Source: a virus
Strand: one strand, 5' to 3'
Length of the DNA: 38,555 bases
Virus record (IMG/VR): IMGVR_UViG_3300030339_000119
Location: 1 to 38,555 of that record
Below, one piece after another: positions 1,002 through 21,652 of the stretch. The notes beneath the pieces are model-generated. The model worked only from the letters and a program-made list of their open reading frames with translations, had not been told where the DNA came from and ran no database searches. The translations under genes were made by a program, and so were the position numbers. Positions within the stretch are counted from its first letter, which is position 1; each line of letters opens with the position of its first letter.

Positions 1002-1219
1002 TAACAACATGGTCGAATTAAAAAGTAGCCATATGCGGGAACGTCCCGAAGACATGCATACTAACCTCAGGTAGTGATACACTGAGGGGCGAAGGGTAAC
1101 GCCTTAGAGATAGTAAAAAGTGCAATGGAAGGGATAATCCGCAGGAAAGACGTACTCCTAAGGGAGTCGAATCCTCAACGACTATACGCTACTGAATGGA
1201 GATTTATTTATAATGTAGC

Positions 1220-1249
1220 TTGACATTGATTGACAGGATGTAATATAAT
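1220..1249 (+). promoter_or_regulatory. SigA-type promoter inside the intron, for the HNH gene
   Basis: TTGACA (1220-1225), an 18-bp spacer and TATAAT (1244-1249): both hexamers match the consensus. It lies 39 bp before the HNH start, so the endonuclease can be made apart from the terminase transcript. Confidence 0.6.
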
Positions 1250-1287
1250 ACCAGTAGAGGATATTTTATATAAAGGGGTGTTATATT

Positions 1288-1845
1288 ATGCTATGTAAAG
1301 ACTGCGGGCAAGAGTTTGATAAGCTCTATGCACCAAGTAAACAACAATGTCGCAAGTGCTATAAGAGAGAGTGGGAACGCAACGCCAACAAAGACCCTGA
1401 ATTGCACAAGAAGATTAGAGCAAGGGCTAAGAGAACCTATGGAAATAATAAAGATACTATACTTCAAAGGAACAAGGCCTTCAGGGAAAAAGAATATTTT
1501 GACAGCAAGAGGCAAGAGCTACTAATAGCGTGTAATTATACTTGTAGCAAATGTGGACAGCAGTATGATGAAAAGAACTTAACTGTACATCATAAGGACA
1601 GACATGGCAGAGGCGTTAAAGACCCAAACAATGAGGACAGCAATCTAATAGTTGAATGCAGAAAATGCCACTGTAATGAGCACCAAGAGGAGCTTATAGC
1701 AGCACGTAAGGCTAAGTATGCAGGTCGTTGGGCTAGGAACTACGATTGTTGTACTATGTGTGGTACTACTCAAACTAAGCACAATAGCGGAGGCCTATGT
1801 AGGAACTGCTATATGAGAGCACGTAATAAGAATCAAAAGGGATGA
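1288..1845 (+). CDS. Intron-encoded HNH homing endonuclease
   Basis: 185 aa, ATG with an AAAGGGG ribosome site. Zinc-binding Cys pairs lie at C3/C6 and C21/C24, a basic helix follows, and the HNH core is C86-x2-C89, HH at 101-102, Asn near 119, C124/C127 and H131. A third Cys-pair zinc site (C155/C158, C171/C174) is at the C terminus. Proteins of this kind cut intronless alleles of the host gene so that repair copies the intron in. Its stop codon directly abuts the 3' strand of intron helix P7, which is typical of ORFs lodged in the P8 loop. The coding sequence has its own promoter at 1220-1249. Confidence 0.88.
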   Translation: MLCKDCGQEFDKLYAPSKQQCRKCYKREWERNANKDPELHKKIRARAKRTYGNNKDTILQRNKAFREKEYFDSKRQELLIACNYTCSKCGQQYDEKNLTVHHKDRHGRGVKDPNNEDSNLIVECRKCHCNEHQEELIAARKAKYAGRWARNYDCCTMCGTTQTKHNSGGLCRNCYMRARNKNQKG

Positions 1846-1921
1846 TATAGTCTAGTCCGACCTCTTCAGTGGGTGACTATTGAAGAGGTGTTAAAGTACC
1901 TAGTAATAGGCGGTGGAATCG

Positions 1922-3160
1922 GAGATAGATAGAATGGCCTCAGGTGTTACTATAGCATTCAATGAGTCTCTAGCCTCTTCAGCATATGGATGGAGAAGGG
2001 ACGTTAGTACACCAAGTCTACCAGGTGTAGGAGTTAATGCAAGTTTTAAAGACTCCGACCAGCAGCACTGGTGGATTAAATGCCCACACTGTGGCACATG
2101 GACTACACTAATACACGACTTTCCTAAAAATGTGATGGAGCTAAGCAAGGACAGCAGAGGCGCACCTAATCACAACCTACACTTAAAGTATCCAGGTATA
2201 ATAAATGAACATGATACACATGCCTATATATGCTTAAAGTGTCATGAGCCTATATCTGATGAGACCAGGATTAAAGGACTATGGAGGCCACTGTATGATT
2301 ATAAGACAGCAGTAAGAGGCTACCAGATAAGCCAACTAGTATGCCCCTGGATAAGTGCTACACAGCTAATGAAAAAGAAACTAGACTATAACCTAGACCA
2401 GCTATTTGAGAACTATGTTATAGGCAGACCTTACCTAGGTGATAATGTAATGATTACTAAGGCTGATATAATGCGGTGTATAGATACTTCACTTAAGAGC
2501 CCTTATGACATACGTAGAAGAGATATTTGCCAGGGTGTTGACTGGGGTAATATGTCATGGGGTGTTAATGCAATGCAGATGCCTGATAATCCAGAAAAGG
2601 TTTTAATACTAGATATATGGAATGCAGAGGACTCAGAGGCAGAGACTATAGACGGTCGAAAGACTAACCCACATATACAGCGAGCAGGCGAGAAGATGAG
2701 ACAGTGGGAGGCAGTGACAGGGGTATTTGATGCTGGTTATGGTAAAGATAGGAACTTTGAACTTATGCAAGATTTCCCAGGAAAAGTATTCTCATGTTTC
2801 TACCCTAACTTATCAAGTGCCTCTACAACTAAAGTTAATGACGTATGGAATGAAGAGGACTCAAAGGTAAGCGTAGATAGGACCTTAACCCTACAGACTA
2901 TGGCTAAGATGTTCAGGGATGGAAAAATAGTTATACCTTTGTGGGTATCACAGAATCCATTGTTTGGTACATTCATTAAGCACCTAACCAATATAGTAAT
3001 GATAAGGGATATTGAAGAGGATGAGAAGACACACAAAGAAATTATCACTATAAGAGTCGGCTGTATGCCTGGTGGAGACCATTTCGCACATGCTATGAAT
3101 TACCTAACAATAGCTCTAAGAAAAGAGAGAAGCTCAGGAGGTTCATTCTATATAGAATAA
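1922..3160 (+). CDS. terL: Terminase large subunit, exon 2 (Walker B Glu, zinc pairs, nuclease)
   Basis: This exon begins with the GAG codon for E193, completing the Walker B Asp-Glu. There is no credible ribosome site for separate translation: a GTG at 1913 opens the frame but lies inside the intron. Cys pairs CPHC and CLKC near the middle match the GpA family. Candidate metal-binding aspartates of the RuvC-like nuclease are D399 (GVDWG), D462 (FDAGYG) and D578 (GGDHFAHA). The protein packages concatemeric DNA through the portal and cuts it. The small terminase subunit is not in this window and probably lies upstream. Confidence 0.88.
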   Translation, partial: EIDRMASGVTIAFNESLASSAYGWRRDVSTPSLPGVGVNASFKDSDQQHWWIKCPHCGTWTTLIHDFPKNVMELSKDSRGAPNHNLHLKYPGIINEHDTHAYICLKCHEPISDETRIKGLWRPLYDYKTAVRGYQISQLVCPWISATQLMKKKLDYNLDQLFENYVIGRPYLGDNVMITKADIMRCIDTSLKSPYDIRRRDICQGVDWGNMSWGVNAMQMPDNPEKVLILDIWNAEDSEAETIDGRKTNPHIQRAGEKMRQWEAVTGVFDAGYGKDRNFELMQDFPGKVFSCFYPNLSSASTTKVNDVWNEEDSKVSVDRTLTLQTMAKMFRDGKIVIPLWVSQNPLFGTFIKHLTNIVMIRDIEEDEKTHKEIITIRVGCMPGGDHFAHAMNYLTIALRKERSSGGSFYIE

Positions 3161-3182: not shown

Positions 3183-3989
3183 ATGAATATAGGACATGAT
3201 AACAGTAAACTAGAAACAATGAGAGATTACAGAACAGCAGACAACATGGACGCAGCAACCAAGGAAGAGGCACTAAGAGCTGCAGTAGAGCAAGCAATGG
3301 CAGTAGAAGCAGCAATGGCAGCAGTACCTGAGGAGACTAAAGCCAAGATACCACCAGAACTAGTAGAAGAAATTGAGCGTCAAGTTGATGAATCAATTCT
3401 AAAAATAATGGCGCAACGTACTATAACAATAGCACCAGGTACAACTGATGCGGAGCTTGAAGCATTTAAAGATATGTGGCGTAAGGACATGCATACAATG
3501 GCGCCTAGCCCTTTTGTTGATACAGCTATGAATATAGCAGCAAACTATGACCCAGCAACAAATGATATAAGCATATGGAAGGGTATGACTAAGAGACCAG
3601 CGCCAGATTTCAGTACACCGCTAGATACTATACTGCAAAATATAAAGGCAGAAAAAGCAGACCTCTACACGCTCACAGTAGACAACAGTGTAAGCGACCA
3701 CAAAGTAAGTCAGATAGCAGAACAACTAAGTAACCTATTTAGTGCTAAGGATATCACAGCACCACTAGTTGTAGTAAGGGATACAACTAGGTTAGCAGGC
3801 CAAGAGTACTTTGAGTTTTCAGTGGCTCTACTACTATTACAAGCAGGCTACAGAGTACAACGTGAGAATTGGGACGGCTACCTCTTCATGATGGATAATG
3901 TTATATATCACAGCAACGATAAGCCAGGTAAAGCCTGGGTTCCAACAAATAAAGCACTGTGTGCGCTTAATTGGAAAGTAGTAAGATGA
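3183..3989 (+). CDS. Virion-region protein with C-terminal Tad2/DUF2829-like domain
   Basis: 268 aa, ATG 22 nt after terL with a GGGAGAGGG ribosome site. Residues 1-75 are Ala/Glu-rich and helical; 75-205 are unrecognised. Residues 209-268 match the pattern of DUF2829 (PF11195), the Tad2-like fold: an F-x2-AL-x2-L-x-AGY-x-V-x-R opening, an ENWDG turn with W230, a short beta section, then WVPTN and a closing ALNWKVV. Tad2 proteins bind the Thoeris signalling nucleotide and block that defence, but most family members are untested. Here the domain is fused to a longer protein between terminase and portal. The family match is by eye and fairly strong; an anti-defence role is inference. Its stop overlaps the next start (ATGA). 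Confidence 0.6.
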   Translation: MNIGHDNSKLETMRDYRTADNMDAATKEEALRAAVEQAMAVEAAMAAVPEETKAKIPPELVEEIERQVDESILKIMAQRTITIAPGTTDAELEAFKDMWRKDMHTMAPSPFVDTAMNIAANYDPATNDISIWKGMTKRPAPDFSTPLDTILQNIKAEKADLYTLTVDNSVSDHKVSQIAEQLSNLFSAKDITAPLVVVRDTTRLAGQEYFEFSVALLLLQAGYRVQRENWDGYLFMMDNVIYHSNDKPGKAWVPTNKALCALNWKVVR

Positions 3990-4569: not shown

Positions 4570-6327
4570 ATGAGCGACATTCTAGACATATATGAGCAAG
4601 CGCCTAAAGCAGAAGAGCTATTGAAAGCCTTTGACAGTGGCAAGCTAAGCAATGTAAAAATAAATGAGCCTAAGTCAGCAATCATTGACCCTTATGATGT
4701 AGAGGGCATAATGGGACTAAGGGCTAAGCCTACAGCAATAACATTCTCTACCCTAAGAAGCATGGCCCAGGTGCCAGCTATAGCAGCTATAATAAATACT
4801 AGACTAAATCAAGTAGCAAGGTTTGCAAGAAGACCAAGGTTTGAAGGTGACATGGGCTTCAAGATAGTGCTTAAAGACAGTGACGCTACTATGACAGACC
4901 CACAAAAGAAGAGAGCTTTTGAGATAGAAGAGTTTTTCATGCGTACAGGGGCAGCACCTAATGCTAGGCGTAAAGACAACTTTGATAGCTTCTTAAGAAA
5001 AATAGTAAGAGATACACTAACACTTGATGCAATGGTTTGGGAAAATGTAGCTAGTAAGAGAGGTGAAGCCTCTGAAGTGTGGGCCGTAGATGGTACTACT
5101 ATTGAAATAGTATCTAGTAATCCAGCAGGTGAAGAGGCGCAGGTGCCCGTATATGAACCAATTACAAACAGAGGTAAGAAGGACAGTGGCCACATAGCAT
5201 ATGTACAAAAAATAGATGGTCAAATAGTGGCAGAGTACACTGAGGATGAGCTCACTTATGCAATTAGAAACCCACGTACAGACATAAGAACCGTAGACTT
5301 TGGTATGTCAGAACTAGAGACTTTAATAGAGATAGTCACAGGTATCATGAATAGCATAAGATATAATACCAGCTACTTTAGTAATAGTCATTTACCACAG
5401 GGTGTACTTGAAGTTGTGGGTAAAGTTAAAGATGAGCATCTAGAGGCATTCTCAAGGCACTGGAAGACAATGACAGAGGGTGCAGGTGGTAAGTGGTCGG
5501 TGCCAGTACTAGGCATATCTGAAGGCGCTGGAGTTAAGTTTACACCCTTTCATAACTCTAATAGGGACATGGAATTTAACGAGTTCCTTGAGTTCTTATT
5601 CAATATAGCATGTGCAGTGTATCAGATAGACCCAACTGAAGTAGGCTTTAAGAGCTGGACCAGCGGCAACAGCATGAGTGCTTCAGATAATACAGAGGCT
5701 AAGATGGACCAGTCTAAGGACAAGGGCTTTATACCTCTAATGCAATTCTTAGCTAATACGTTTAACTCTCAGATAGTAGACCATATAGACGATGAATATT
5801 GTCTTATGTGGGTAGGTATAGATGAAGAGGATGAAGATGCTAAGTGGAATAGATACAAAATACAGATAGATTCAGGTGTAGTACAGGTAGCAGAGGTCCG
5901 TAAAAAAGAAGACATGGAAGAGGTACTAGATGAAGAGGGTAAACCTGCCTCATGGACCTTAGCACCAGGTAATACAGTACTTATGCAGGTATTTATGTCA
6001 GAGTTACAAGCTAAGCAGCAGGCAGAGCAAGCAGAGCAGCAGCAAGCACAGCAAGGCCAAGAGCAAGAGCAAGCCCAAGCAACTTCAGACGATGCGCATA
6101 AAAAGAACCTTGAAGTTATGGATAAACAACACGGCCAAAGCATAGACATGCAGAACCTACAGCATAAGCACGACATGGAAGGTAAGAGCGCAGACCAAAA
6201 ACACCAAACAAATATAGAGGCTATGAAACAGAAGGCAGCTGCTAAGGCTAAACCAGGGCAACCAATAAAGAAGTCATTAAATGATGATGAGCCCCTTGAG
6301 GTAATAATAGACTGGGCAGATTATTAG
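4570..6327 (+). CDS. Portal protein
   Basis: 585 aa, ATG after a strong AAGGAGGTG site. Identified as portal from place (after terminase, directly before the MuF-like gene), length and sequence style: an N-terminal region with repeated I/L-rich helices (VPAIAAIINTRLNQ), a central WENV/VWAVDG section, FSNSHLPQG and a YQIDPTEVGF segment, all typical of myovirus portals. The C terminus (about residues 480-570) is a Gln/Glu/Ala-rich helical stretch with a likely coiled coil. Twelve copies would form the DNA entry ring that binds terminase, scaffold and connector. Its stop is 11 nt before the next start. Confidence 0.85.
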   Translation: MSDILDIYEQAPKAEELLKAFDSGKLSNVKINEPKSAIIDPYDVEGIMGLRAKPTAITFSTLRSMAQVPAIAAIINTRLNQVARFARRPRFEGDMGFKIVLKDSDATMTDPQKKRAFEIEEFFMRTGAAPNARRKDNFDSFLRKIVRDTLTLDAMVWENVASKRGEASEVWAVDGTTIEIVSSNPAGEEAQVPVYEPITNRGKKDSGHIAYVQKIDGQIVAEYTEDELTYAIRNPRTDIRTVDFGMSELETLIEIVTGIMNSIRYNTSYFSNSHLPQGVLEVVGKVKDEHLEAFSRHWKTMTEGAGGKWSVPVLGISEGAGVKFTPFHNSNRDMEFNEFLEFLFNIACAVYQIDPTEVGFKSWTSGNSMSASDNTEAKMDQSKDKGFIPLMQFLANTFNSQIVDHIDDEYCLMWVGIDEEDEDAKWNRYKIQIDSGVVQVAEVRKKEDMEEVLDEEGKPASWTLAPGNTVLMQVFMSELQAKQQAEQAEQQQAQQGQEQEQAQATSDDAHKKNLEVMDKQHGQSIDMQNLQHKHDMEGKSADQKHQTNIEAMKQKAAAKAKPGQPIKKSLNDDEPLEVIIDWADY

Positions 6328-6338: not shown

Positions 6339-7697
6339 ATGAAAGTGCAAATGACACTACCACTTAAAATGAAAGAGCTTACAGAGGCACAGAGAGCTGC
6401 AGTAGTAGAAGAGTTAAGCAAAGCTATGGGAGTAGCAGGACCTATTACCTATATGCAAGCACCTGAAAAGGAACACAATATATGGGCGCTTAATGATAAT
6501 AGTATGCTAGCAGATGCAGAGGAGGAGCTATACCATGAGCTAGTAGAGCCAGCGTTCAATAACATGGCTGAGCTTATAGCAGCGCTAGGCCTCTCCAATG
6601 AACATGTAGAAATGACTAAATCACTAGGTACAGAGTTTATGGCATATCAAGAAGAACTCATAAAGAGTGCACGTAGACCCAATAAACTAACAGAGCTATG
6701 GAATATAGCCAAGCGTAAGCGTAAGGACTTTATCAAGTATCTACAGGGGCAGGATAATTGGAGCAAGCAAAAGCTCAAGCAGATAGACGGTATATTAAAG
6801 CAAGACCTACCAAACGCTGAGAAGGTAGCAGAGAAGTATGCAGTAAGAGCGGCATTTATAGCTAAGATAAGAAATAAGCAAGATACAGAGGCACTGAAAG
6901 CTACAGGCGCTTATGTGGACCGCTTTCCTACCACTATAAAAGCAGCTAGGCATGAGGGTGTAGTGTTAACAGCAGCTAAAGACCCTGCAATAGAAGTTCT
7001 AGCTAATTTAAGTCCTACAGTTACAGAGGCTGAGTTAGACGAAGCACTAAGAGCAGCTAGAGCTAAGCGTAATCTAGCTATGCATAATTATGAGATATTA
7101 CCTCTACAGCCTCAGGAAATAAGAACTGTAGAGAATGCAGAAATAAGGACCGCAGATAAGATAGCAGAGGTAGCAGAAAAGCACAGAGCAGGTATAAAGC
7201 AAGTAGTACTACAAGCTATCAATGGTCGTTGGTCCGCTGCTAAATTAGCCCAAATGTTATTCGACAAGTTCGGCGAGCAAAACAGGGACTGGAGGCGTGT
7301 AGCTATCACAGAGCTTGCAATGGCCTCTAGTGACGCATTCTTAGCAGGATGTGAAGAAGGGGACCAAGTAACAGTGAATACTGTAGAGGGCTCATGTAGA
7401 TACTGTAAGCAATATCTAGAAGGTAGAACCTTTACAGTAACTCACAAGGCAGAGCTAATGGGAACTAATTACAGTGACGAAATGAACTATGTTTGGGTGG
7501 GTAAGACTAACTATGGCAGGCGTGTAGCAACTTATATACCTTGTATTCCGCTGCATCCTAATTGTAGACATATGTGGCATAAACTATCAAGATTCTACAG
7601 CATGGTAGATGGTAAGCCAACACTGAGATCACTTAAAGACTTGATCAATGAAGAACGTATCAGAAGGGGAATTGGAATTGATGAAAATTTGAAATAA
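6339..7697 (+). CDS. MuF-like head morphogenesis protein
   Basis: 452 aa, GAGGTGG ribosome site. The C-terminal third carries the Mu gpF signature (PF04233): AITELAMA, the EGSCRYCKQYLEGRTF segment, and PLHPNCRHMW near residue 410. The N-terminal part is helical and probably contacts portal or DNA. MuF proteins are minor head proteins of portal neighbourhoods and in many phages precede toxin or polyvalent-protein genes, as here. The last ~25 codons differ in texture (more AT-rich) and hold the only two GATC sites I found in the window (7627 and 7643), just before the inserted minus-strand/HNH pair. Confidence 0.8.
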   Translation: MKVQMTLPLKMKELTEAQRAAVVEELSKAMGVAGPITYMQAPEKEHNIWALNDNSMLADAEEELYHELVEPAFNNMAELIAALGLSNEHVEMTKSLGTEFMAYQEELIKSARRPNKLTELWNIAKRKRKDFIKYLQGQDNWSKQKLKQIDGILKQDLPNAEKVAEKYAVRAAFIAKIRNKQDTEALKATGAYVDRFPTTIKAARHEGVVLTAAKDPAIEVLANLSPTVTEAELDEALRAARAKRNLAMHNYEILPLQPQEIRTVENAEIRTADKIAEVAEKHRAGIKQVVLQAINGRWSAAKLAQMLFDKFGEQNRDWRRVAITELAMASSDAFLAGCEEGDQVTVNTVEGSCRYCKQYLEGRTFTVTHKAELMGTNYSDEMNYVWVGKTNYGRRVATYIPCIPLHPNCRHMWHKLSRFYSMVDGKPTLRSLKDLINEERIRRGIGIDENLK

Positions 7698-7886: not shown

Positions 7887-7938
7887 ATTATACTACAGCT
7901 AGATAATACTTGCAAGTCCTAGGACATTGGAATATAAT
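7887..7938. promoter_or_regulatory. Divergent promoters sharing one -35 box
   Basis: TTGCAA at 7910-7915 is its own reverse complement. Exactly 17 bp to its right is TATAAT (7933-7938) for the plus-strand HNH gene. Exactly 17 bp to its left is TATAAT on the minus strand (7887-7892) for the RHH gene. Both promoters are near consensus and cannot both hold RNA polymerase at once. Confidence 0.65.
7908..7925. promoter_or_regulatory. Candidate operator: two adjoining 10-bp palindromes
   Basis: ACTTGCAAGT (7908-7917) and GTCCTAGGAC (7916-7925) are both perfect palindromes, overlap by two bases, and cover the shared -35 box. RHH dimers bind short palindromes cooperatively, so these are plausible sites for the 52-aa RHH protein. 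Confidence 0.4.
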
Positions 7939-7956
7939 AGTGGTAGAGGTGATTTT

Positions 7957-8787
7957 ATGGAAATGAAAATTTGCAGTAAGTGTGGGGCTGAGCTACCTGC
8001 AACTAAAGAGTATTTCCATATTAGGAAAGATGCTAAGGATGGCCTTAGAAACGAATGTAGGGAATGCAGAATTAAAAGAGAGCGGCAGCGCTGGGAAAAG
8101 AATAGAGTGGCTATAAGTAAAAGGCAAAAAGCCTATTGCTTGGAACATAAAGAAACTATTGCTGCAAGGGCAAAGCAGTACTACGATATAAATAAGCTAA
8201 GTATACAGGCACAAAAGAAGCAATATAATAGCAAAAACAAGGAGCACAAGGCTACATGGAGCACCCAGTATCGTAAGGAACATAAGGTGGCCATAGCTGA
8301 GCAAGCAAAACAGTACTATGAAACACATAGGAAAAGCATCCTTGAACAGAAGAAACTGTACCAGGCAGAACATGCTAAAGATATTAGTGTACGTAGAAAA
8401 CGCTACTATGAAGAAAATAGGCCAGCTATATCTGAGCGCAGCAAGCAGTGGGCACGTAATAATAAAACTAAACGTGTTATCATACGTCAGCGTAGAAAGG
8501 CTAGAGAATATGCGTTGCCTGCAACGTTAACAGCTGAACAGTGGGCGCAAACTAAAGAATACTTTAATAACAGGTGTGCTTACTGTGGCCGCAAACTTGA
8601 GTTAACACAGGAGCACATTATACCAGTAGCCAAGGGAGGCCATTACAGCCGAGAGAATATTATACCAGCATGTAAGACATGCAACAGCAGCAAGCGAGCT
8701 AAGGACTTTATGCAGTGGTACCCTACTTATAAATACTACTCAGAGGAGCGAGCAGACGCTATTATAAATTATATGAACTCTATATAA
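7957..8787 (+). CDS. Free-standing HNH endonuclease
   Basis: 276 aa from the ATG behind a GAGGTGA site; a TTG at 7927 in frame overlaps the -10 box and is rejected. Residues 6-37 form a four-Cys zinc ribbon (C6/C9, C34/C37). Residues 40-180 are a run of near-repeats of about 16-22 residues of the form Y-Y-x3-N/H-x3-I-x3-K, a basic helical arm likely to lie along DNA. The HNH nuclease is C-terminal: C207/C210, H220 (EHIIPV), H229, then Asn and a C-x2-C-N pair. It sits between intact genes with no sign of splicing, so it is a free-standing homing-type endonuclease. A 19-nt stretch at its promoter resembles that of the intron HNH gene. Confidence 0.85.
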   Translation: MEMKICSKCGAELPATKEYFHIRKDAKDGLRNECRECRIKRERQRWEKNRVAISKRQKAYCLEHKETIAARAKQYYDINKLSIQAQKKQYNSKNKEHKATWSTQYRKEHKVAIAEQAKQYYETHRKSILEQKKLYQAEHAKDISVRRKRYYEENRPAISERSKQWARNNKTKRVIIRQRRKAREYALPATLTAEQWAQTKEYFNNRCAYCGRKLELTQEHIIPVAKGGHYSRENIIPACKTCNSSKRAKDFMQWYPTYKYYSEERADAIINYMNSI

Positions 8788-8803
8788 CAGAGGAGGTTAC
8801 AGC

Positions 8804-11800
8804 ATGCTATATGACGCAGACAAACTAGAAATTATAAGCAAATCAGTGCTCTATGATTACTTAGACCCAGCAGCATTTCCAATGGAGGCTTCACAGATGC
8901 TATTTAGAGGTATAGGTGCTAATGAGCTAGCATTTATAAAGGAGCACGGATATATAGCTTCTAAAGGAAAGGGAAATGATTCAGACCAACAGCAGGCGGT
9001 AACCTGCTTTTCCCAGTTATTTAGTCAGGCAGAGGGTTATGCTATCAGCAATTATACATTGTATGGTGAGAAACAAGCTTACGTGCTTGTAGTGACACCA
9101 CCAATAAACGCTGTAGAAAATGAGCTAGGAGAGACAGAGGTACCAGGCACAGTGCCTGAAAGTGCTATAGTAGCCATAATACCAATAGAGCAGCTACAGA
9201 AGTCAATCACAAGAGCAGAGGCTAAGAAGGTGCACAAAGACCTACCGCCTGGAGGTGAGTGGAAGACAGTCAGAGGAAGACATATATATGTACTCAATGG
9301 TAAAATACTGGCAGGCAGCTTAGAGGGTGCTAGTGGTAATGCTAAAAAAGCCACACGAGCACAGCTAAGCGAACATCAAGTTGAACTAGATAAAGAAGTT
9401 AAGAAGAAAAAAACTACAGCTAAAACCTCTACAGTGGCTAAGAAGCCAGTAGCTAAGACAAAGAAGACCACGGAGGTTAAGCCTGCCCCTAAAAAGACTA
9501 TAAAGCCTGTAACAGATAAAAAAGCAGCTGCAGCAAAGACTACAGCTAAGGCACGTAAAGATATAGATGCTATAGCTAACAGCAGACCAAAAGAAAAGAA
9601 AAAGGCTGAAGTGCTACCAAAGGATAATAAAAAGAATGTAGAGGCAGTACTAGCAGGTGCCAACAATAAAGGTACTAAGCTAAAAGCTAAGACAAATACT
9701 AAAGCGGAGCTAGACAAACTAATAGCAGCCAGTGATAAAAAGAAGAGACAACCTAAACCACCTACGGTCAAAGACTTAGATGAAATGTTTGGTGCCTCTA
9801 CACCTAAAGCTAAGCCAGAGGCTAAAAAACCTATTAATAGCAGGTTTAAAAAGGTGCAGGATGCAGGTACTTCTACAGGCGAAAAAATACCATCTAAAGC
9901 GGCCAATACAACGGGTAGTAAGAAAACCAAGGTAGCTGACATAAGGTCTGAGAAGCAGGTTAATCATGATGTAGCCTACGATACAGGGGTTAAGATAGGT
10001 GGTGCTAGGAAGGATATGGCAGAGCTTAGGAAAGCCACTGATAAGCTGATGAGCGACAGCACAGGACAATCCCTCGATGCACTGGAGAACATGGCGCCTG
10101 AAGTAGCACAGCGCTACTGTATCAAGAAAAATTTAATAAATCCAGTGGATTTTGAGGCAGACTACAAGAACGGCATGGATATAAAAACAGCTATGTGTAA
10201 ACAGCTTATCTATGACCGCATAGCACCGAAGCCACCAGGAGATACAGCAGAAGATAGGCAATTATACCTAAATGCAATAAGAAGCCTACAGAGGACACTA
10301 GAGCCTATTAAATCGTGGGATGATTTTAGAAATGCAGTAAGTGACTTAGGTAATCAAATGAAGAGGGAAACACCAGCATTTTTAAAGAATCAACAAGACT
10401 ATTTAGACTATGCTAAAAGGGAAGCAGCCAAAGAGCCTAGTGCCTCAGACTTGATGGAGCGTGATTATAAGGCTGATAAGTGGAACCACATAACACCCGA
10501 AGAGTGGAAAGCTAAGAAGCTAGCCCGTATAAAGGAAGTTGAGAACTCTATAAAGCAGCATCATGAAGCAGCTGCTAAGCCTTATGCGCCTCTGGGTGAT
10601 AAGCTAACTAACTTCTTTACTAACTATGAAAGCCGTAACAGAACCTATGACACTATGAATAAGAAGAAGCTAGACTGGGGTAACTACTTTGCTCAAGCTA
10701 AGGCAGAGGCCGACAAGCCTAAGGAAAAGAAAGTGCCTAATAACACAGTCAGGTGGGAGCGTGTAATGCCTAGAAAGATACAGAGGTCAGGTGGTAGACC
10801 TACACCAGTTAAGAAGCCTGAAGACATGGTAAAGACCTTTAAGTTTAAAGGTGTTGAGTTTGGGAACTATGTAGATGACAAAAGTGGTAACTTCCACTTA
10901 ATAAAGTGTGCAGAGGCCTTCCAGGACTTAGCTGATATATTAGGTATGAAGGACAAAGACGTATCGTTAAATGGTAGTTTATCAATGGCATTCGGAGCCC
11001 GTGGTAAAGGTGCAGCATTAGCTCACTACGAACCAGTGGCAAAGGCTATCAATATTACTAAGAATGGTGGCGCTGGAACACTAGCTCATGAGTGGGGTCA
11101 TGCACTTGATAATCTTATGTATCAAGCAAGTGCTGGGCATAGTTCACTTAACTACGCTTCAGAGGGTATGCAGGACCAAGGGTCTCCAGCAGTTAAAGCA
11201 GCCTATAAGGACGTTATGCACGCTATAATGTTTGGTAATGGTAACGGTAAAGACACCGTGGAGAATAAGCATAAGACGTACTATAGCTTCCACCCTAGCT
11301 TTAAGAAGGCCGTAGAAGAGTTTGGTCTAGGTGGCGCTATAAAGAAAGCTACAGATATGATTAATGAGAAGGCTACTCATAACAACGAATACTATGAGAA
11401 GCTCAGAGGCAGATACGATGATAAAACTATAGATAAAAAGATACTAAGCAATGAGCGTAAAAGAAAGATGGATATAAATGACATGGTTCAAGAAATGGCC
11501 TACCACCACGAGAAGCGTACAGGAGAGAAGTTAGATAACATACCAGTATACTCAGGTCACTCTCAGTACTATGTGGACTCTAGTAAGCAAGGTGGAAAAG
11601 ATAACAAGTACTGGACCAGCAACTGTGAAATGTTTGCCAGAGCCTTTGAGAACTATGTTGAAGGTAAAATGAAGACAGGGCCTATTAAAAATGATTACCT
11701 AGTACACTATACCTACGAGAAAGGTTTTGCTACGTGTCCAGCACCTTACCCACAAGATGAAGAGAGAACAGCTATTCATGCACAATTTGACAAGCTAATG

Positions 11801-13105
11801 GGAGCTATAAGAAGCTCAGGGGCTATACAAAAGGCGCTAGCTATAGAAGCACTAGAAAAATCTATGGGTATTAATATAGCCGAGCATATAGACCAGTCTA
11901 ACCGCAATGCCTACAATGTGCCCAACACTGAGGGTGTGCTATGGATACCAGTAAATAGATTAAGCTGCCCCTACCAAACAGAGGCTGCATTGAACTTTGA
12001 CAAGATACAAGAGAACGTAGAGCATATGAAAGCAGGTGAGAACCTGGAGCCCGTAGTAATTGGCTACGATTATGATGTGCATGATGGTCACCACAGGATA
12101 GAGGCTAGCAAGATAATGAAGTACACCCACATACCCTGCATAGTAGGTGGTTCAAATGACCTACAGGTGCAAAGAGCTGATGAAATGTATAGAGAGATAT
12201 GGAAGTCTGTCAATAAAGAGTTACCACCTGGTGGCCGCTGGGTCACTGTAAGAGGTAGACACACATATATTAAAGATGGTAAGGTACTAGCAGGCGCTAT
12301 ATCTAGCGTACACTTATCTAAAAGACCTTTGTATAGTAATAGTAAGAGGGGTAAGCAGGACAGTGACACCAGCCCCCAAAACAAAAAGGATGTGTCAAAT
12401 ATGAAAAAGAAAGAGGGAATTTCTAACAGTGGAAGAGAAGAAAGTAAAACAAGAGCTATCGGAGGAGACGCTAGCAAGGCTAGACAAAATGAAGCAGGAC
12501 GTAATAGCGGAAATGATAGCAAGAGGATGGAGCAAGGAGCAAGCGGAGGAGCAAGCGGAAGCACTCATGTAAAATACCATGAAGTAGCGCCTAGGGAATT
12601 TCACAGTGCTATAGCAGCTGCAAAAGCTAACAATAGCCACGGAGCCTTTGTAGACCTACACGACCTGGACGACTATAACGGTGACAAGCTGCTAATGTCA
12701 CCAAACGGCGGTGCAGGTGTAGCAGTAACACCTGATGGCAATATAATATCAGTGTTCAAGGACCCAGCTAGTAAAGAAAAGGGAGCTATGCATAGTATCC
12801 TAATGAATGCACTAGAACACGGAGGTAAGAAGTTAGATTGTTTTGATGGAGCGCTACCTACGATGTATGCTAAGTATGGAATGACACCAGTAGCTAAGTG
12901 CAAGTTTAGCAGAGAGTATGCACCTGAAGGTTGGAACTTTGAAAGGGATGGAGAACCAGATGTCATCTTTATGGTCCACAACGGAGACTCAATGGATAGG
13001 GTAAAAGATAACTTTGGAAAATACCCAGCAGCGGACCTGAGTAAGGCGCCCTATGTAGACGAATACGATGAAGGCCTAGCTATGCAGGATAAGTATCTAA
13101 AATAA
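8804..13105 (+). CDS. Giant polyvalent protein: ART-like, metallopeptidase, ParB-like and C-terminal domains
   Basis: 1433 aa, ATG after GAGGAGG. Order by eye: residues 32-130 resemble an ADP-ribosyltransferase fold (FRG with R35, S70 in TCFS, and E110-T-E112, an R-S-ExE pattern). An LPPGG motif at 147 is followed by W-x-TVRGRHIY and GKILAG; a second copy is at 1140. Residues ~190-400 are Lys/Ala/Thr-rich. Residues ~684-770 look like the LPD1-type region of polyvalent proteins ending in H762-EWGH-766, a zinc-peptidase motif. Residues ~1040-1130 look ParB/sulfiredoxin-like with D1094-GHHR. The C-terminal ~175 residues match a domain seen at the end of phage polyvalent proteins (ALPTMYAKYGM, EYAPEGW). 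Such proteins are packaged in heads and ejected; activity is unproven. Confidence 0.75.
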   Translation: MLYDADKLEIISKSVLYDYLDPAAFPMEASQMLFRGIGANELAFIKEHGYIASKGKGNDSDQQQAVTCFSQLFSQAEGYAISNYTLYGEKQAYVLVVTPPINAVENELGETEVPGTVPESAIVAIIPIEQLQKSITRAEAKKVHKDLPPGGEWKTVRGRHIYVLNGKILAGSLEGASGNAKKATRAQLSEHQVELDKEVKKKKTTAKTSTVAKKPVAKTKKTTEVKPAPKKTIKPVTDKKAAAAKTTAKARKDIDAIANSRPKEKKKAEVLPKDNKKNVEAVLAGANNKGTKLKAKTNTKAELDKLIAASDKKKRQPKPPTVKDLDEMFGASTPKAKPEAKKPINSRFKKVQDAGTSTGEKIPSKAANTTGSKKTKVADIRSEKQVNHDVAYDTGVKIGGARKDMAELRKATDKLMSDSTGQSLDALENMAPEVAQRYCIKKNLINPVDFEADYKNGMDIKTAMCKQLIYDRIAPKPPGDTAEDRQLYLNAIRSLQRTLEPIKSWDDFRNAVSDLGNQMKRETPAFLKNQQDYLDYAKREAAKEPSASDLMERDYKADKWNHITPEEWKAKKLARIKEVENSIKQHHEAAAKPYAPLGDKLTNFFTNYESRNRTYDTMNKKKLDWGNYFAQAKAEADKPKEKKVPNNTVRWERVMPRKIQRSGGRPTPVKKPEDMVKTFKFKGVEFGNYVDDKSGNFHLIKCAEAFQDLADILGMKDKDVSLNGSLSMAFGARGKGAALAHYEPVAKAINITKNGGAGTLAHEWGHALDNLMYQASAGHSSLNYASEGMQDQGSPAVKAAYKDVMHAIMFGNGNGKDTVENKHKTYYSFHPSFKKAVEEFGLGGAIKKATDMINEKATHNNEYYEKLRGRYDDKTIDKKILSNERKRKMDINDMVQEMAYHHEKRTGEKLDNIPVYSGHSQYYVDSSKQGGKDNKYWTSNCEMFARAFENYVEGKMKTGPIKNDYLVHYTYEKGFATCPAPYPQDEERTAIHAQFDKLMGAIRSSGAIQKALAIEALEKSMGINIAEHIDQSNRNAYNVPNTEGVLWIPVNRLSCPYQTEAALNFDKIQENVEHMKAGENLEPVVIGYDYDVHDGHHRIEASKIMKYTHIPCIVGGSNDLQVQRADEMYREIWKSVNKELPPGGRWVTVRGRHTYIKDGKVLAGAISSVHLSKRPLYSNSKRGKQDSDTSPQNKKDVSNMKKKEGISNSGREESKTRAIGGDASKARQNEAGRNSGNDSKRMEQGASGGASGSTHVKYHEVAPREFHSAIAAAKANNSHGAFVDLHDLDDYNGDKLLMSPNGGAGVAVTPDGNIISVFKDPASKEKGAMHSILMNALEHGGKKLDCFDGALPTMYAKYGMTPVAKCKFSREYAPEGWNFERDGEPDVIFMVHNGDSMDRVKDNFGKYPAADLSKAPYVDEYDEGLAMQDKYLK

Positions 13106-13453: not shown

Positions 13454-13477
13454 TAAATGTGAATATCTGATAGAATG
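13447..13477 (+). promoter_or_regulatory. Phage promoter motif, copy 1 (lysozyme)
   Basis: A 31-bp element with TGTAAA (13448), 17 bp, then TAGAAT (13471), preceded by the shared block AATATCTGA. It matches the element at 14575-14605 at 27 of 31 positions. It lies about 55 bp before the lysozyme start. Conservation in noncoding DNA upstream of two genes supports a promoter. Confidence 0.55.
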
Positions 13478-13531
13478 GGTTATAGATGGAAAGTCTTTAA
13501 CGAAATTTATATAGGAAAGAAGGATGATAAA

Positions 13532-14569
13532 ATGAGCTATATTAAGGGCATTGACATTTCAAACAACAACGGAAGCATTGACTTCAAGGCAGTAGCAGTA
13601 GATGGCGTAGGTATTGTATACCTAAAAGCCTCTGAGGGTACTACCATGCAGGACTCTACCCTAGCTAGCTTCTATACAGAGGCTAAGGCACAAGGATTAA
13701 AGGTGGGGGCGTATCACTTTTTAGTTGGCACAAGTGAACCAGAGACACAAGCTGCAAACTTCTATGCACAGATAAAAGACTATGACTGGGACTGTGTACC
13801 AATGATGGATGTAGAGACTAACTTCACAGGTTTAGCTGACTATGTTATAAGGTTTATTGCTGCATTTAATGCACTAAGTCCACTTACACTAGGTATCTAT
13901 AGCTACACTAGCTTTATAGAATACTTAGCAGACGCAGAGGCCACTATAAAAGATATGCCTTTCTGGGAAGCTAACTACGACAACGACCCTTGGAACCTAC
14001 CTACTAACACTATCTTTACTAACAGAGTAGGCCACCAATACACTGAGACAGGCTCTATTAGCGGTGTAAGTGAGGGCTGTGATGTAGACTCTTTCACAGA
14101 GGGTATATACTCAGATGCTACTACAAGCACTGCAGGAGCATGGACTGAGACAAATAACAAATGGTGGTATAAACATACAGATGGCACTTACTCTAAGTCA
14201 GCCTGGGAAAAGATTGATGGTAAGTGGTACTACTTTGACTCAGAGGGCTATATGGCCTATGACTGGAAAGAAGATGGTAATAACTGGTATCTATTAGGCC
14301 ACGCAGACGATGGAGCTATGAAAACAGGTTGGAATAAAACAGGGGGCAAATGGTACTACTTTGACCTAACTACTGGGGCTATGCAAACTGGCTGGCTAAA
14401 GATAGATGGCGAGTGGTACTACTTAGGTACAGATGGAGCTATGAAGACTGGGTGGATAAGTGACGGTGGTAAAGACTATTGCTGCTACTCATATGGTGCT
14501 ATGATAAGCAATTGTGACCTATATGGTTATAGATTCGATACTAACGGGGTAGCTACTAAAATAAGCTAG
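13532..14569 (+). CDS. GH25 lysozyme (endolysin) with cell-wall-binding repeats
   Basis: 345 aa from ATG at 13532 (GAAAGAAGGA site). An in-frame upstream ATG at 13475 lies inside the promoter region and lacks a ribosome site. Residues 1-190 are a GH25 muramidase: GIDISNNNG with D8, AYHFL, and the MMDVE pair D93/E95 as likely catalytic acids. Residues ~205-330 hold about five aromatic repeats (WYYF...GAMKTGW type), the choline-binding/CW_binding_1 module that anchors to teichoic acid or choline. There is no signal peptide, so release would need a holin, which is not visible in this window, or the protein acts in the virion. It is placed unusually, between the two giant genes. Confidence 0.92.
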   Translation: MSYIKGIDISNNNGSIDFKAVAVDGVGIVYLKASEGTTMQDSTLASFYTEAKAQGLKVGAYHFLVGTSEPETQAANFYAQIKDYDWDCVPMMDVETNFTGLADYVIRFIAAFNALSPLTLGIYSYTSFIEYLADAEATIKDMPFWEANYDNDPWNLPTNTIFTNRVGHQYTETGSISGVSEGCDVDSFTEGIYSDATTSTAGAWTETNNKWWYKHTDGTYSKSAWEKIDGKWYYFDSEGYMAYDWKEDGNNWYLLGHADDGAMKTGWNKTGGKWYYFDLTTGAMQTGWLKIDGEWYYLGTDGAMKTGWISDGGKDYCCYSYGAMISNCDLYGYRFDTNGVATKIS

Positions 14570-14574: not shown

Positions 14575-14605
14575 GTGTAAATATCTGTTAATATCTGATA
14601 GAATG
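14575..14605 (+). promoter_or_regulatory. Phage promoter motif, copy 2 (second giant gene)
   Basis: TGTAAA at 14576, 17 bp, TAGAAT at 14599; 27 of 31 positions match copy 1. It contains a tandem TAAATATCTG/TTAATATCTG. The last base of the -10 is the first base of the terminator stem at 14604-14641. Confidence 0.55.
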
Positions 14606-14641
14606 TGGTGTAAAGACATAAATATTTACACCACATTTTTT
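14604..14641 (+). terminator. Intrinsic terminator overlapping a promoter
   Basis: A perfect 11-bp stem (TGTGGTGTAAA 14604-14614 with 14625-14635), 10-nt loop and six T (14636-14641). It ends the lysozyme transcript. A transcript started from the promoter above would begin near 14611 and lack most of the left arm, so it should escape. Confidence 0.85.
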
Positions 14642-14662
14642 AATAAAGGGGGTACACAAATT

Positions 14663-17600
14663 ATGGATACAACAGAACCTATATTATATATAGACTTACA
14701 GAAGAGTGTAAGCTGGAAAGAAGAACTCCATAAGCGTACAGCTAATGGCCGTTTCACTACAGTTCGTACAGGGTCTAAGATTGTTACATCCACTGGTAAA
14801 ACAGGCGTCGTAACAAAAGTAGGCGATGAGCACTACCACTATAGGGATGACTCAACAGGTAAGCTAGGTAAAGTCGCTAAAAACAACGCTATACATCATG
14901 CAGACCACGCTAAGGCTATGGAAGCTCAAAAGAAGGCAAAGAGAAAAAAGGCTGCAGCAGCTAAAGGAACAGCCACAAAAGTTACCAATAAAGCTAATGG
15001 CCATGGTAAGGCAAAAGAGCTACCAATACCAAAGACTAAAGCTGCAGAGGCTAAGAGCACAAAGAAAACCTCTACAGCAGCAAAGAAGGCTACAGTGGCA
15101 GCCCCTACTACAAAGGTGACAAAGACTAAGCCTACAGAGGCTAAAGTTACAAAGACAGCTGCAAAAGCTAAGCCAGCCACAACTAAAGCGGCTACAAAGA
15201 AAGCTACAGTAACACCAGCTGCACCACTAGTAATTACACCAAAGGGCACAGCTAAAGCTAAGTCTAAGAAAGTGAAGAAGGTTATACCTCCAGCACCGAA
15301 GCCAACTGACAGCGTATTTGATGCGTCACCCAACTCAAGAGGCAACGTAGCTGCAAAGGTTAAGACTACACCTATTAAGAATGCAGGCAAAAAAGCAGTA
15401 GACCCTATGGATGATAAGCAAAATCAAGAATTAAAGAAATATGAGAATATGGAAAATGATAGGGATACAACTCAAGATATAGACAATATGTGGAACAGCA
15501 AGCCAGTGCAAAGACTAATGAACCGTGCCCCTGAAAAGCGCTCAGAGGACGATATTAGAGCACTAGCAGGTGATATAACAACAAAGAACGATAAGCTAGC
15601 TAGACACGCAACGCTTCAAATGGGTAAGGCCAGAGGCTTAAACCTACTAATGCAACAAAATAGAATAGGTGATGTAGGCCAAAGTGGTAATGGTGAGGTA
15701 ATCAATCAAGAGACAGGTTACTACGGAGACCTATTACAAGCAGCTAGAACTTCCATGTATGAAACTCTGTACAAGATTATGAAGGGCAGCCAAAACCCTA
15801 AAGCAGGTGCAAGTATAGGAGCGCATGTAGTAAACAGGATGAAGCAACAATTACACGGTGACATATATGACCTTATGCATGATGTACCAGCACCGCATGA
15901 GATACGTACTGCTATAGCTGATATGGAAAGTGGTAGAAAAACATTGCAGCAAACACTGGGACGTAATCCTGAGGACAAGGAACTAGCAGAGCATCTTCAA
16001 GCAACTTCTAAGCGTTTCAAAGAAGCACCTATAATGGACCACCCAACATATGATGAAAAGACTAATCAATGGGTAGGTTTTAAGAACCGTATTGCAGACC
16101 CAGTGGAGAGGCTAAGAGCTTTAAGCACTTATGCAGCTCAACAAAAGGCTACATCTATGGACAAAAACATGGCCTCTGAGGGTGAAAACGAGGTAAATGT
16201 AGGCACTAACCTTAAAGACGAAAACCTAACACCTGATGAAGCCTATGAGAGAAAAGAGAGACAAAAGGAACTAGAGACTGATATACCAGCAGCCCTAGAC
16301 CAACTAGGCCTAAATGAAAAAGAAAAGATGGTATTTATGACTATGTTCGGAAGCCCTTCAGCTAAGATTAAACGTGGCAATCTTACAATGGACGAGACTG
16401 CAGAGATTATTAATAATGAAGGTGGCTATGACGGTGGCCAAAAAGCTAATAAACAGTGGGTAAATAAATACTATAGGTCAGCTATGGAAAAAATCATAGC
16501 AGCTAGAAAGAGCAATCATCCAGCATTACAAGAACTACAAAGTAAGTTTATGAAGTCTTTATTCTTTGACTTAGTGTTTAAAGCTCTATATGAATATGAC
16601 CTTATTAAGTCTATGCATAGCTGGGGTATAGGTATAGAGACACTACACCAGGAATATACTAGAACAGCTGGAGCAGCTAACCTTTTATCACTAAGGAAGT
16701 CATTAGCACCATATGAATATATAGGCTCAGTAGTAACTACAGAGGACGGGGGTATACACGCTAGAATTGTAGAGTTCGCAGTACCAGATGATACAGCACT
16801 TTACAAGTCATTTTCAGCGTCAATGGACCAATTAAAAAAATCCATGTTCCCCCACGTAGGAAAATCTAACCATGAAATAAATAAAAAAGCTGCAGACTAT
16901 GTAAAAGCAAATAAAGCTAAGTATAGCTCAGCCTCTGACGCACAACATGCAGCAGCAAAAGCTAAGAAGGGTGACCTTACTTGGTCAGAGAAATTACTGC
17001 TAGACAATCCTGGCAGTGCTTGGCTTAGCTGGGGTGGTAAACGTATCCTTATTGCCGTGGGGGACGGTAAGGTACTATATGACTCTAGCAATGAACAGCA
17101 CAGAGACACACATAACAATGGAGCCTCTGAGGATAAGATAGACTTTCACCACGAAAAAGATAAGCTAGCAGAGCAAGGACTAGAAGACACTGAGGAGAGT
17201 AGAGCTAAGGTAAACGATGGTATACAAGCCTTTAAAGAACAAATGGACGATATGAGAACTGAGTGGAAAACCAAAGTACAGCCTAAGCTTAGGGATGAGA
17301 ATGAGCATAAAGTAGGTAATGCCTACATGAATATGACTGAGGCTCAGCGTAAGGAAGTAGAGGACGCTCAGGACAAGAAATATGCCGTGGGTAAAACTAT
17401 ATTTGAGTGGCATGAGGCAGCTATTACTGAGGCTGCAAATGAACTACGAGCTAAGGCAAAGGACATTGATGCAGACGACTCACTTGATAAAGCAGGTAAG
17501 AAAGCAGCCCTAGACGCAGCTAAGGAAGAGTTTGCACTTAAAATGCAGAAAATAGGCGGTGCAAAGTCTAACGGTATGGGAACTAAAAAGAAAATGATAC

Positions 17601-20600
17601 CAGTAGGCACCACTGTACTTAACCTGCCAGATGTGGACTCAGACAGCTCAAAGGCTGCAATAGCTAGGCACATAGGAGAAGCGGAATTAGGTAGAGGTAG
17701 AGACGACGTAGGAAAGAAGATGCTTCCTGAGGGTACTTTCATGATAGGTAATCCCGTAACAGGCAAGACAATGGTAGTTAAGATTAAAAATGGTTTTGGT
17801 ACTGGAGGTACTAAGACTACATGGACCTCAGCTATTACAGAGGCTTTTGACCCAGACGGAGGTGAGCATGAAGCACTAACATCTTGGGGTGGACTTGGTA
17901 GAGCTCTAGGTCTTAAGAGTAAAGACATGCAAAATGACATAGTCGCAAAGGCTAATGACCAGGAAGATAAACCCTTTGTTAAGCAAATAAGCGAAGAAGA
18001 ATACAATAGCATGAGAGCAAACACTAAGGTAGGCCTACAAGAGAGTATGACCCACAAGGACTTTAAGCTAGTAGACCAGCGCCTTGATAAGGACAACAAG
18101 TTATCAAGTAGCACCTATGCACAAGATATGCCAGACGGGACACAAAATACCTTTACAGTGGACGCTAAGGGGCATATCACTGACCCAGTAATGGCTAGAC
18201 TTATAAGCCAAACTAAGCCTATTAAGAGCGTAGATGACCTACACGATGTATTAAAAAATGCAGTAGGTAATAGAGCCTGGGTAACTGCTCACTTCGGTAG
18301 TGACATACATGTAGGCAGTGCACTAGGTCATCACGTACAATTGGAATATGATGGTAAGGGAGCGCCTAGAGTAGTCGGTGGTGTATATGATGGCTATAGA
18401 TTTATAGACACCAGAGATATACCAAAGGACTCAATAGACCCAGCCACAGGGGAACCTATTAAAGCATTATTTAAAAATGGTAAGCTAGTCGACAGAGGCT
18501 TAACTACTAAGAATGATGTAGCAATGGATAAGGGCAACCCAGTAATGTACAAGGATGGAGACAAGTACAAGAAGGGTAAAATACACTCTATAGAAGACGG
18601 AAGCTATAAAATAACTGATAGCAAAGGCAACGTAGTCGGAATGTTTAAGAAGGACCAATTGAAGCCAGTTAGAGCAGAGGGTAAGACTAACTCAAAGAGT
18701 GGCCAAGCCGTAGTGAGACTAGCTCAAGATGGAATGCACAGAGCCGATACTAATGCTATGTTTACAGCTGAAAATGACAAAGACCAAAAGAAATTAGATA
18801 AGGCTAGAGACCTATTTAGTCAAGCCCTTCAAAAGGCAGGGGTAAGCAGAGCCTTTGATAAAGAGGGTGTACTAAATAAGGACCTAGAATTAAATGATGA
18901 AACTATGGCTAAGCTTAAAAAAGTACTCGGTAGGTCAAAGGCAGGAAAAGTACTTCTTGACCAATTTAAGAGTGCTTACACTAAAGAGTTAGAAATACAC
19001 GTTCCTGATAGTTTAAAGGCTCAAATAGAGGCTGAGGGTGTTTCTGTTGGACCTAACGGTACAGCTAGAATATCGGTAGGTAAATTTGAGCAATTAAGGG
19101 ATGTACTCGGTGGCTTATCTATAGACAGTGGCGCAAGAAAGCACCTAGAAGAGCACTTTAACAGAAAAGATAGAAAGCCTATGGAAGAACGTATGCCTGA
19201 GATAATAAAGAACTACGACCCACGAAGCGTAGATACAAAGACAGCCTTTGGTAAAGCCTACAGAGACCAGTTTAAAGACGATAGCTTTATGATGGAAAAG
19301 GATAAAGGCCTCTACGGTGTTCAACTTCAAGGTGTAACGCACTTAATTGAAAGAGGCAGAGGTATTGTAGGTCACGGAATGGGTATAGGTAAGACAGCCA
19401 CAGGGGTTGCAGCTGCTATGCACTATAAAGCTACACAAATAGCTAACGGTGAGAAGCCTAAGAAAACTCTTATAGTATCACCAGCTGGTATTCAAAGCGA
19501 CTGGGGTAAGGAAATAGGAGGTAATACTAACTCTAGGGCCCTTTATATAGGCTCACAGGGCACACTTAAAAAGAACAATGCAGACGGTACAGTTATGAAG
19601 GCAGCTAATGGTAGAAATATGTTTGGTCAAAACGGTACAGAGCAAGAGAGCGTAGGTGCTAAACAATTCCTAAAGAACATGGATAGCATAGGCAAAGAAG
19701 ACCACGACTTCCACATCATGAGTTACGACCAATTTAAAAAGATGAGGCATGAGATAGCTAATTCAGGTCTATACGACAATATCATAATAGATGAAATCCA
19801 TGCATTTAAAAACCAAAGTGGCCAACGTGGTAAGTCACTTGCAGAGACTACTGATAAGTTTAAAAACGTTTGGGGGCTATCAGGTACACCTATGGAAAAT
19901 GACGCCAGAGAAGTGTACTCTCTAATAGACACAGTAACAGGTGGTAAACATGCTCTAGGTACTAAAAAAGAGTTTACAGACAACTATCTGATGAAGGATA
20001 AAAATGGTAAAATCATAGGTGTAAAAGAGAATAAGGCACATAAGCTAGGGGATATTTTAGCTAACGTGGTCCAATTTAGAGCAGGCACAGACGTTAAGCG
20101 TACTGACAACAGCACAATCCAGTTCCCACAATTAGTAGGAGCAACCTCAGAGGCTAATCCTAACCCACAAAGTGACTTCATAGGCAACATGGTAGACAGG
20201 AACCGTGACCATCAAACTACTGACTACTATGGAACTAAGCACTCAGTGTTTGACTACAAAGGTGACATGCAGACAGTGACAGCTAAAGATGGCAGCACAT
20301 ACGAAGTACCAACTACAGAGCCTACAAACCTAGATAAGGATACAGAGGACTTCTATAGCAAGTACAGAGAGCTACAAGCACAGCATCTACCTGAATCTAA
20401 GTTAAAGGAACTAGCGCAAGCAGCCTCTACAGGTTATGACACTGGAAGTGCAAATAGCAAGAGCAGCGGTAAGAACTATCTTACAGCTATGCAAAAGCTA
20501 CAAAAATACCTAAACGGTGGTAAGCATATAGAGAACATGTATGTACCTGGAGGTGGAAGTGCACTTGACTCAGAGGCTACAGGGGAGCAAACAATAGCAA

Positions 20601-21610: not shown

Positions 21611-21613
21611 GTG

Positions 21614-21631: not shown

Positions 21632-21652
21632 TGTATAAAAGGAGGCATAATT

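Follow-up and report, generated by a model that had tools for sequence, protein, structure and literature searches.

Which kind of protein is encoded by a very large reading frame among the head genes of a phage known from IMG/VR virus record IMGVR_UViG_3300030339_000119, and what purpose could it serve? The protein, here named giant 1, comprises 1433 amino acids (aa). The window analysed is the whole stretch of 38,555 nucleotides, identical with the virus record; a colinear IMG/VR contig of 80,258 bp matches it with > 99.9% identity, and a 12.9-kb contig with 100% identity over its own length. Giant 1 itself is identical in two other IMG/VR records. We conclude that giant 1 is a phage-type polyvalent protein, and the best explanation of the whole, to which we give a probability of roughly 0.66, is that it is packaged, ejected and serves early RNA polymerase takeover. 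The open reading frame (ORF), domains, conservation, gene order, repeated tags and the partnership with a second large protein, giant 2, were obtained from the sequence or by prediction. The constituents of giant 1, including two domains abbreviated as ART (ADP-ribosyltransferase) and Srx (sulfiredoxin) and a tag recognized by its hidden Markov model (HMM), are listed below.

8790-8796, plus strand: ribosome-binding site of giant 1, gaggagg, strong, 7 bases 5' of the ATG at 8804
8804-13105, plus strand: giant 1, polyvalent protein, 1433 aa, a single uninterrupted ORF
8870-9193, plus strand: ART-fold domain core, residues 23-130, with R35, S70 and E110 (AlphaFold2, Foldseek, 11-sequence alignment)
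9224-9328, plus strand: junction tag copy 1, residues 141-175, KKVHKDLPPGGEWKTVRGRHIYVLNGKILAGS (tag HMM, E 1.6e-22)
10778-11320, plus strand: zincin-like metallopeptidase core, HEWGH at 11087-11101, H741 and D769 (CLCA_X, invariant ligands, weak fold match)
11594-11812, plus strand: LPD1 domain, residues 931-1003, E942 at 11627-11629 (Pfam LPD1, E 5.4e-20, above cut-off)
11846-12211, plus strand: ParB/Srx-like domain, residues 1015-1136, DGHHR at 12083-12097 (phrog_26754, Foldseek, SPO1 gp2.12)
12203-12307, plus strand: junction tag copy 2, residues 1134-1168 (tag HMM, E 1.9e-21)
12572-13102, plus strand: end domain, probably GNAT-like, residues 1257-1433 (phrog_2563, E 5e-10; Caron homologue)

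The original prediction had assigned ART-like, zinc-peptidase and ParB-like domains on the basis of R35, S70, E110 and E112, H762-E-W-G-H766 and D1094-G-H-H-R1098, and inspection of the ORF located every one of these residues as predicted. Chance occurrence of the motifs was estimated by residue shuffling. In shuffled giant 1, 0.06 occurrences of HExxH and 0.015 of [DE]GxHR are expected, while an R/S/ExE spacing comparable to the predicted one appears in 21% of shuffles of residues 1-180. Because of these values, the first two motifs are informative alone and R..S..ExE is not; it was rejected as stand-alone evidence for an ART, and conservation and fold carry the evidence instead.

Residues 1-180 were recognized by no profile library, and HMM searches with residues 1-145 and their relatives against Pfam, PDB sequences and phages were without a significant match, so it was structure prediction by which the fold was identified. 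AlphaFold2 modelled residues 1-145 with a mean pLDDT (predicted local distance difference test) of 70 and values of mostly about 81-93 in the core. Searching the PDB with Foldseek returned ART-superfamily or ART-like structures down to about rank 37, among them cholera-group toxins, Tpt1/KptA, pertussis-group toxins, TreTu and CC0527. The probability was 1.00 to cholera-group and Tpt1/KptA ARTs and 0.98-0.99 to the pertussis group, with E of 3e-4 to 3e-2 and TM-scores of about 0.5. The predicted fold of residues 1-145 is that of the ART superfamily. In the Foldseek viral library, the domain matched ARTs of phages, DarT-like ones among them, proteins annotated as structural or as head-morphogenesis proteins, and also regions of annotated ParB/sulfiredoxin or ParB-nuclease proteins; ART and ParB therefore probably co-occur elsewhere.

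Relatives of giant 1 were found by alignment-driven scans of IMG/VR, and their layout was determined with HMMs built on our own alignments. Invariant positions in an alignment of 11 ART sequences are R35, G36, E41, N58, D59, T67, F69, A76, Y79, A80, G109 and E110, and position 70 is S or T. In most of these sequences E112 is replaced by another residue, so that conservation rules it out as a catalytic residue and E110-x-E112 does not persist as a motif. The ART-like domain originally predicted is hence retained in its fold, but an assignment to the arginine-type (R-S-ExE) enzymes is not supported because E112 is not conserved. R35 is placed on strand 1, T67-C-F-S/T70 on strand 2, and a late strand starts at E110. 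Polyvalent-protein ARTs are reported to carry an H-Y-D set (PMC5512222), and the Tox-ART-HYD2 pattern of H on strand 1, Y on strand 2 and D on strand 5 is absent from giant 1. As read from the alignment, its active site, R-[S/T]-E, fits neither this set nor the ExE of the arginine-type R-S-E clade. Enzymes of the R-S-E type represented by T4 Alt are said to be absent from genuine polyvalent proteins (PMC5512222). No relatives of this ART were found in bacterial genomes.

The middle part of giant 1 is a zincin-LPD1 unit. The NCBIfam model CLCA_X (NF041907) matches residues 673-788 (E 6.6e-32), and because its 110.9 bits are below the 260-bit family cut-off, the match denotes a shared homologous domain and not family membership. 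An alignment of 12 sequences shows no variation at H741, H762, E763, H766, D769 and E942. A widespread clade of phage zincins is characterized by two further residues, a conserved His ahead of HEXXH and an Asp at the third position behind it (PMC5512222), and giant 1 has both in H741 and D769. The third zinc ligand of this clade is expected to be a Glu from a second, C-terminal helix. E942, with which LPD1 begins and for which a helix is predicted, is the most probable candidate for it; we infer that LPD1 forms the C-terminal half of the peptidase. With Foldseek, the middle region had weak matches, of a probability of up to 0.75, to the zincin of lethal factor, and a match to the lethal-factor superfamily has likewise been reported for polyvalent zincins (PMC5512222). 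The unit is widespread in bacterial genomes. Two Bacillaceae genomes (L049 and L050) contain stand-alone relatives of ~ 625 aa, about 32% identical, corresponding to the region before and through zincin-LPD1, and ART, ParB and tag were not detected in them.

Residues 1015-1152 are matched by ParB-like PHROGs (phrog_26754, E 1.2e-34, and another at 7e-31), and Foldseek matched this domain to Noc, ParB and sulfiredoxin with probability 1.00 and E of about 2e-3 and above. The fold is accompanied by a GxHR-type motif, D1094GHHR, a combination by which ParB/Srx domains are recognized. D1094-G-x-H is nearly invariant among relatives. L013 and L025 have K instead of R1098, and any activity with a strict need for this arginine is therefore not conserved. 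Among named proteins, gp2.12 of Bacillus phage SPO1 is the closest (51% identity over 121 aa); it is a solo protein of 207 aa. SPO1-type ParB proteins are unmentioned as virion components in a Goe2/Goe3 paper. A ParB/Srx domain and a zincin are also joined in one phage protein in P1 DdrB and DdrB-like ParB proteins, and P1 DdrB is processed before packaging (PMC5512222). In comparison with DdrB, giant 1 has a ParB domain closest to SPO1 gp2.12, a different domain order, and ART and GNAT-like modules.

Within the end domain, residues 1295-1391 are matched by phrog_2563, a family of unknown function. Homologues of the end domain include the C-terminus of Microbacterium phage Caron gp4 (36% over 169 aa). 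In Caron (L118, 2906-4483), this minor capsid protein consists of a VG15 domain fused to the giant-1 end domain, and differs from giant 1 in having no zincin or ParB. A short Streptomyces phage homologue is annotated as an acetyltransferase. No GNAT profile was significant and there was no Pfam GNAT match to the end domain; GNAT chains reached E of 1.2-1.5 only, and the predicted model of the region is of low confidence. It is by its conserved pattern that the end domain is probably GNAT-like. The capsid fusion in Caron constitutes good indirect evidence for virion delivery of the end-domain module.

The two junctions listed above carry copies of one tag, ~ 35 aa long, with the consensus of about KxVHKDLPPGGxWRTxxGHHIYIxDGKILAGS. 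It occurs once or twice in each of ten related loci, at module starts, and its pattern had 0 occurrences in 1.24 Mb of bacterial control loci. A looser variant inside giant 2 was revealed by pattern search and not picked up by the tag HMM. In the simplest reading of these sequences, the tag would mark the start of a cargo unit, and it is probably a candidate head-targeting (packaging) and/or processing signal. A general phage motif is not supported, as tblastn with 57 aa gave no match in 50,697 phage records. Separate tagged ORFs are present between MuF and giant 1 in two relatives (L041, 1532-2962, with the tag near the start, and L039, 629-2140), and that of L041 has a sub-threshold PARP match (E 0.009).

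Giant 1 thus joins at least two domains of disparate biochemistry in one polypeptide (ART fold, zincin, LPD1, ParB/Srx, GNAT-like). Its gene is one of the late virion genes, as is characteristic of polyvalent proteins, and stands between those of MuF and the prohead protease. The genes that define this location are as follows.

4570-6327, plus strand: portal protein (Pfam Phage_portal, E 5e-22)
6339-7697, plus strand: MuF-like minor head protein (phrog_115, E 8e-6, weak)
7927-8787: HNH gene between the MuF-like gene and giant 1
25646-27229, plus strand: head maturation protease/scaffold, candidate processing enzyme (phrog_1028, E 3e-44)
27358-28704, plus strand: major head protein (phrog_752, E 3e-75)

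A position beside MuF had been proposed, and the MuF-like gene is indeed upstream in the same head module, but the HNH gene intervenes. In L024, L028 and L029, the first large ORF upstream of giant 1 encodes the MuF homologue. Large proteins are not always packaged, and giant 1 could instead be a large cytoplasmic infection protein whose gene merely stands among head genes. Against this, the position between MuF and giant 2 is conserved in many records, a minor capsid protein of another phage carries the end domain, and ART-fold relatives occur in annotated virion proteins; we regard a cytoplasmic protein as the least probable of the explanations considered.

The phage-type polyvalent proteins described by Iyer et al. 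2017 (PMC5512222) have in common with giant 1 unrelated catalytic domains in one chain, a zincin hub, LPD1, ParB/Srx, ART, the late virion gene location and, in the zincin, the additional His and an Asp at the third position after HEXXH. Giant 1 differs from them in its R-[S/T]-E instead of H-Y-D ART, in the repeated junction tag, in the GNAT-like end domain (capsid-fused elsewhere), and in the conserved sigma-70/SNF2 partner. The polyvalent architecture originally predicted is borne out by the zincin, LPD1, ParB/Srx and ART-fold domain in a phage head module. Fold or profile matches were looked for in all three regions named in that prediction and found for each, so a lack of matches cannot be held against it, and its family assignment was right in kind. 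Giant 1 is a new variant within a known class, whose unusual points are the junction tag, an ART of the R-[S/T]-E type and the sigma/SNF2 partner.

The order of modules in the window is ART-tag-zincin-LPD1-ParB-tag-end domain, and in nine loci (L013, L024, L025, L029, L030, L037, L038, L039 and L041) it is zincin-LPD1-ParB-ART. The ART behaves as a mobile module, because it is C-terminal in relatives and N-terminal in the window phage. A tag is found in front of the giant in eight of the nine loci, the exception being L037, where the record begins inside the giant; a second tag follows ART in L013 and L025, and ParB in L039. L028 has another sequence, YHTT...GRGLYVSP in form, in place of the ART; we read it as a putative HYD-type ART. 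The giant of L027 is truncated before ParB. The L013 protein includes an N-terminal RadC-like JAB domain (residues 280-395, E 2e-21), in a region common to L025 and L027 by sequence. RadC in polyvalent proteins has been reported for conjugative elements only (PMC5512222), and its presence in phage polyvalent relatives is a combination beyond what the 2017 survey reported.

Conservation and module order bear on the explanation that giant 1 serves as a structural or internal component of the head, with largely inert enzyme-like folds, or that its zincin merely matures the virion in assembly. Such a role would suit the position in the head module and the ParB R1098 that is not strictly conserved, and in the virion RNA polymerase of N4 a region with a metallopeptidase is needed for encapsidation (PMC5512222). 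However, active-site-type residues, including R35 and E110 of the ART and the zincin ligands, are kept across relatives at 38-60% identity, and modules are swapped and permuted as effectors would be, unlike a fixed structural part. We consider a structural role very unlikely.

Giant 2 directly follows giant 1 in L013, L024, L025, L029, L030, L037, L039 and L041. In the window, it is comprised of the following.

14603-21610, plus strand: giant 2, 2335 aa, with a sigma-70-like region and an SNF2 ATPase (profile searches, conserved partnership)
15593-16582, plus strand: sigma-70-like region of giant 2, residues 331-660 (sigma-70 profiles)
19328-20095, plus strand: SNF2-related ATPase of giant 2 (Pfam SNF2-rel_dom, E 6.8e-19)

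The sigma-70-like residues 331-660 were matched by Sigma70_r3 in 9/9 sequences (best E 2e-6) and by FliA_WhiG in 8/9. RpoD_Cterm matches positions 83-271 of the sigma stretch, and bacterial SigA in the PDB was matched with E 8e-5. The word "sigma" does not occur in the text of the 2017 polyvalent-protein survey (PMC5512222), and no report of a virion-packaged sigma factor was found among the open-access papers searched; giant 2 is probably more novel than giant 1. A search for T7-type RNA polymerase in relatives gave no match, and carries no weight because the positive control also remained without a match. In SPO1 (L120, 3217-6282), the terminase large subunit (TerL), the ParB-like gp2.12 and the sigma factor gp2.21 are arranged in a row, mirroring ParB in giant 1 and sigma in giant 2. 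As an ancestor of the giant 2 sigma region, gp2.21 is unsupported, since the two are not detectably homologous and gene order alone is similar.

Because the conserved partner is a sigma-70-like/SNF2 protein, the most likely purpose of giants 1 and 2 is early takeover of the host RNA polymerase, and the sigma-70-like region of giant 2 makes takeover at least as well supported as counter-defence. In the main alternative, the same polyvalent protein has modules that mainly counter host defences (restriction, CRISPR, NAD- or nucleotide-signalling immunity) and not transcription. Counter-defence is among the roles that have been suggested for these proteins, and SNF2 in polyvalent proteins is usually found within a counter-restriction SNF2-methylase module (both PMC5512222); in the window, an ORF of 268 aa (3183-3989) has a C-terminal, sub-threshold match to the Thoeris anti-defence protein Tad2 (E 6e-4). 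The sigma-70-like region of giant 2 speaks against this alternative, as does the lack of any Pfam or NCBIfam methylase match in giant 2, and a search of giant 1, which did not extend to the PADLOC library, revealed no known anti-defence domain. On balance, a mainly counter-defensive role appears rather unlikely.

For the takeover of RNA polymerase, we infer packaging, ejection, catalysis, cleavage and targets of giant 1 as follows. Giant 1 would be synthesized late, along with the head proteins, enter the head and leave it together with the DNA, and its modules would act at once in the cell. The zincin-LPD1 unit may separate the modules by cutting the polyprotein at their boundaries. Covalent modification of host proteins would fall to the ART-fold domain, and probably to the GNAT-like domain too, and the ParB/Srx domain would bind or hydrolyse nucleotide, or nick DNA. 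The ART and possibly the GNAT-like domain would modify host RNA polymerase in concert with giant 2. The working analogues are T4 Alt and the phiKMV-type acetyltransferase Rac, the latter discussed in PMC7824862. T4 Alt, a head-packaged and injected ADP-ribosyltransferase, resembles giant 1 as a model of a head-delivered ART that modifies host RNA polymerase and in R-S-E type residues; it differs in that no sequence relationship was detected, in not being polyvalent, and in its ExE, which is not conserved in giant 1. Homologues of single modules are found on or beside virion genes, the end domain on the Caron VG15 minor capsid protein and a ParB gene after terminase in SPO1.

Several points weigh against this proposal. 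The ART model is of moderate confidence (mean pLDDT of 70, TM-scores of about 0.5), no GNAT profile matches the end domain significantly, and ParB R1098 is replaced by K in two relatives. The sigma match in giant 2 is mainly to region 3 by Pfam, regions 2 and 4 being derived from the longer NCBIfam matches and our own reading of the alignment. The tag could be a structural linker, with cleavage at tags presumed, and virion delivery is deduced here from the genes of an uncultured phage.

A tentative extension, which we hold as possible and would sooner doubt than accept, is that giants 1 and 2 might constitute a head-delivered transcription-takeover kit. In it, a virion-borne sigma-70/SNF2 protein would be ejected together with an ART and an acetyltransferase that modify host RNA polymerase, the ~ 35-aa tag at the start of each cargo unit would be a head-targeting and cleavage signal, and the giants would be fused addressable cargoes. 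If the takeover proposal is right, the system would be a clear, dissectable example of a phage delivering several enzymes together, polyvalent cargo might have its missing address label in the recurrent tag, and a sigma-70-like domain would join the predicted injected repertoire. A virion-borne sigma factor would be a direct means of starting phage transcription with the host polymerase.

The complete gene order in the window is TerL (split by an HNH gene), portal, MuF-like, HNH, giant 1, GH25/choline-binding endolysin, giant 2 and others, and further head protease, major capsid, adaptors, sheath, virion structural/tube-like, chaperone and tail lysin. The capsid protein is nearest to those of SPO1-type and Bacteroides DAC-type phages (about 35%). 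TerL (426-3160) is encoded in two ORFs (426-1004 and 1913-3160) with an HNH endonuclease ORF (1288-1845) between them, as if a homing element; no group I intron or other known RNA was matched by Rfam in the window. The endolysin gene (13475-14569), located between the two giants, encodes a GH25 enzyme with choline-binding repeats, and because of these repeats the host probably has a choline-decorated wall; in L024, the giants are adjacent without an endolysin. Directly after giant 2, an ORF of 371 aa (21611-22726) has a glycosidase-like look and matches the minor head family phrog_6042 (E 1e-10). Just before the tail sheath gene, at 32470-32723, a 24-bp (8-codon) unit is repeated in tandem in 10.6 copies of 97% identity.

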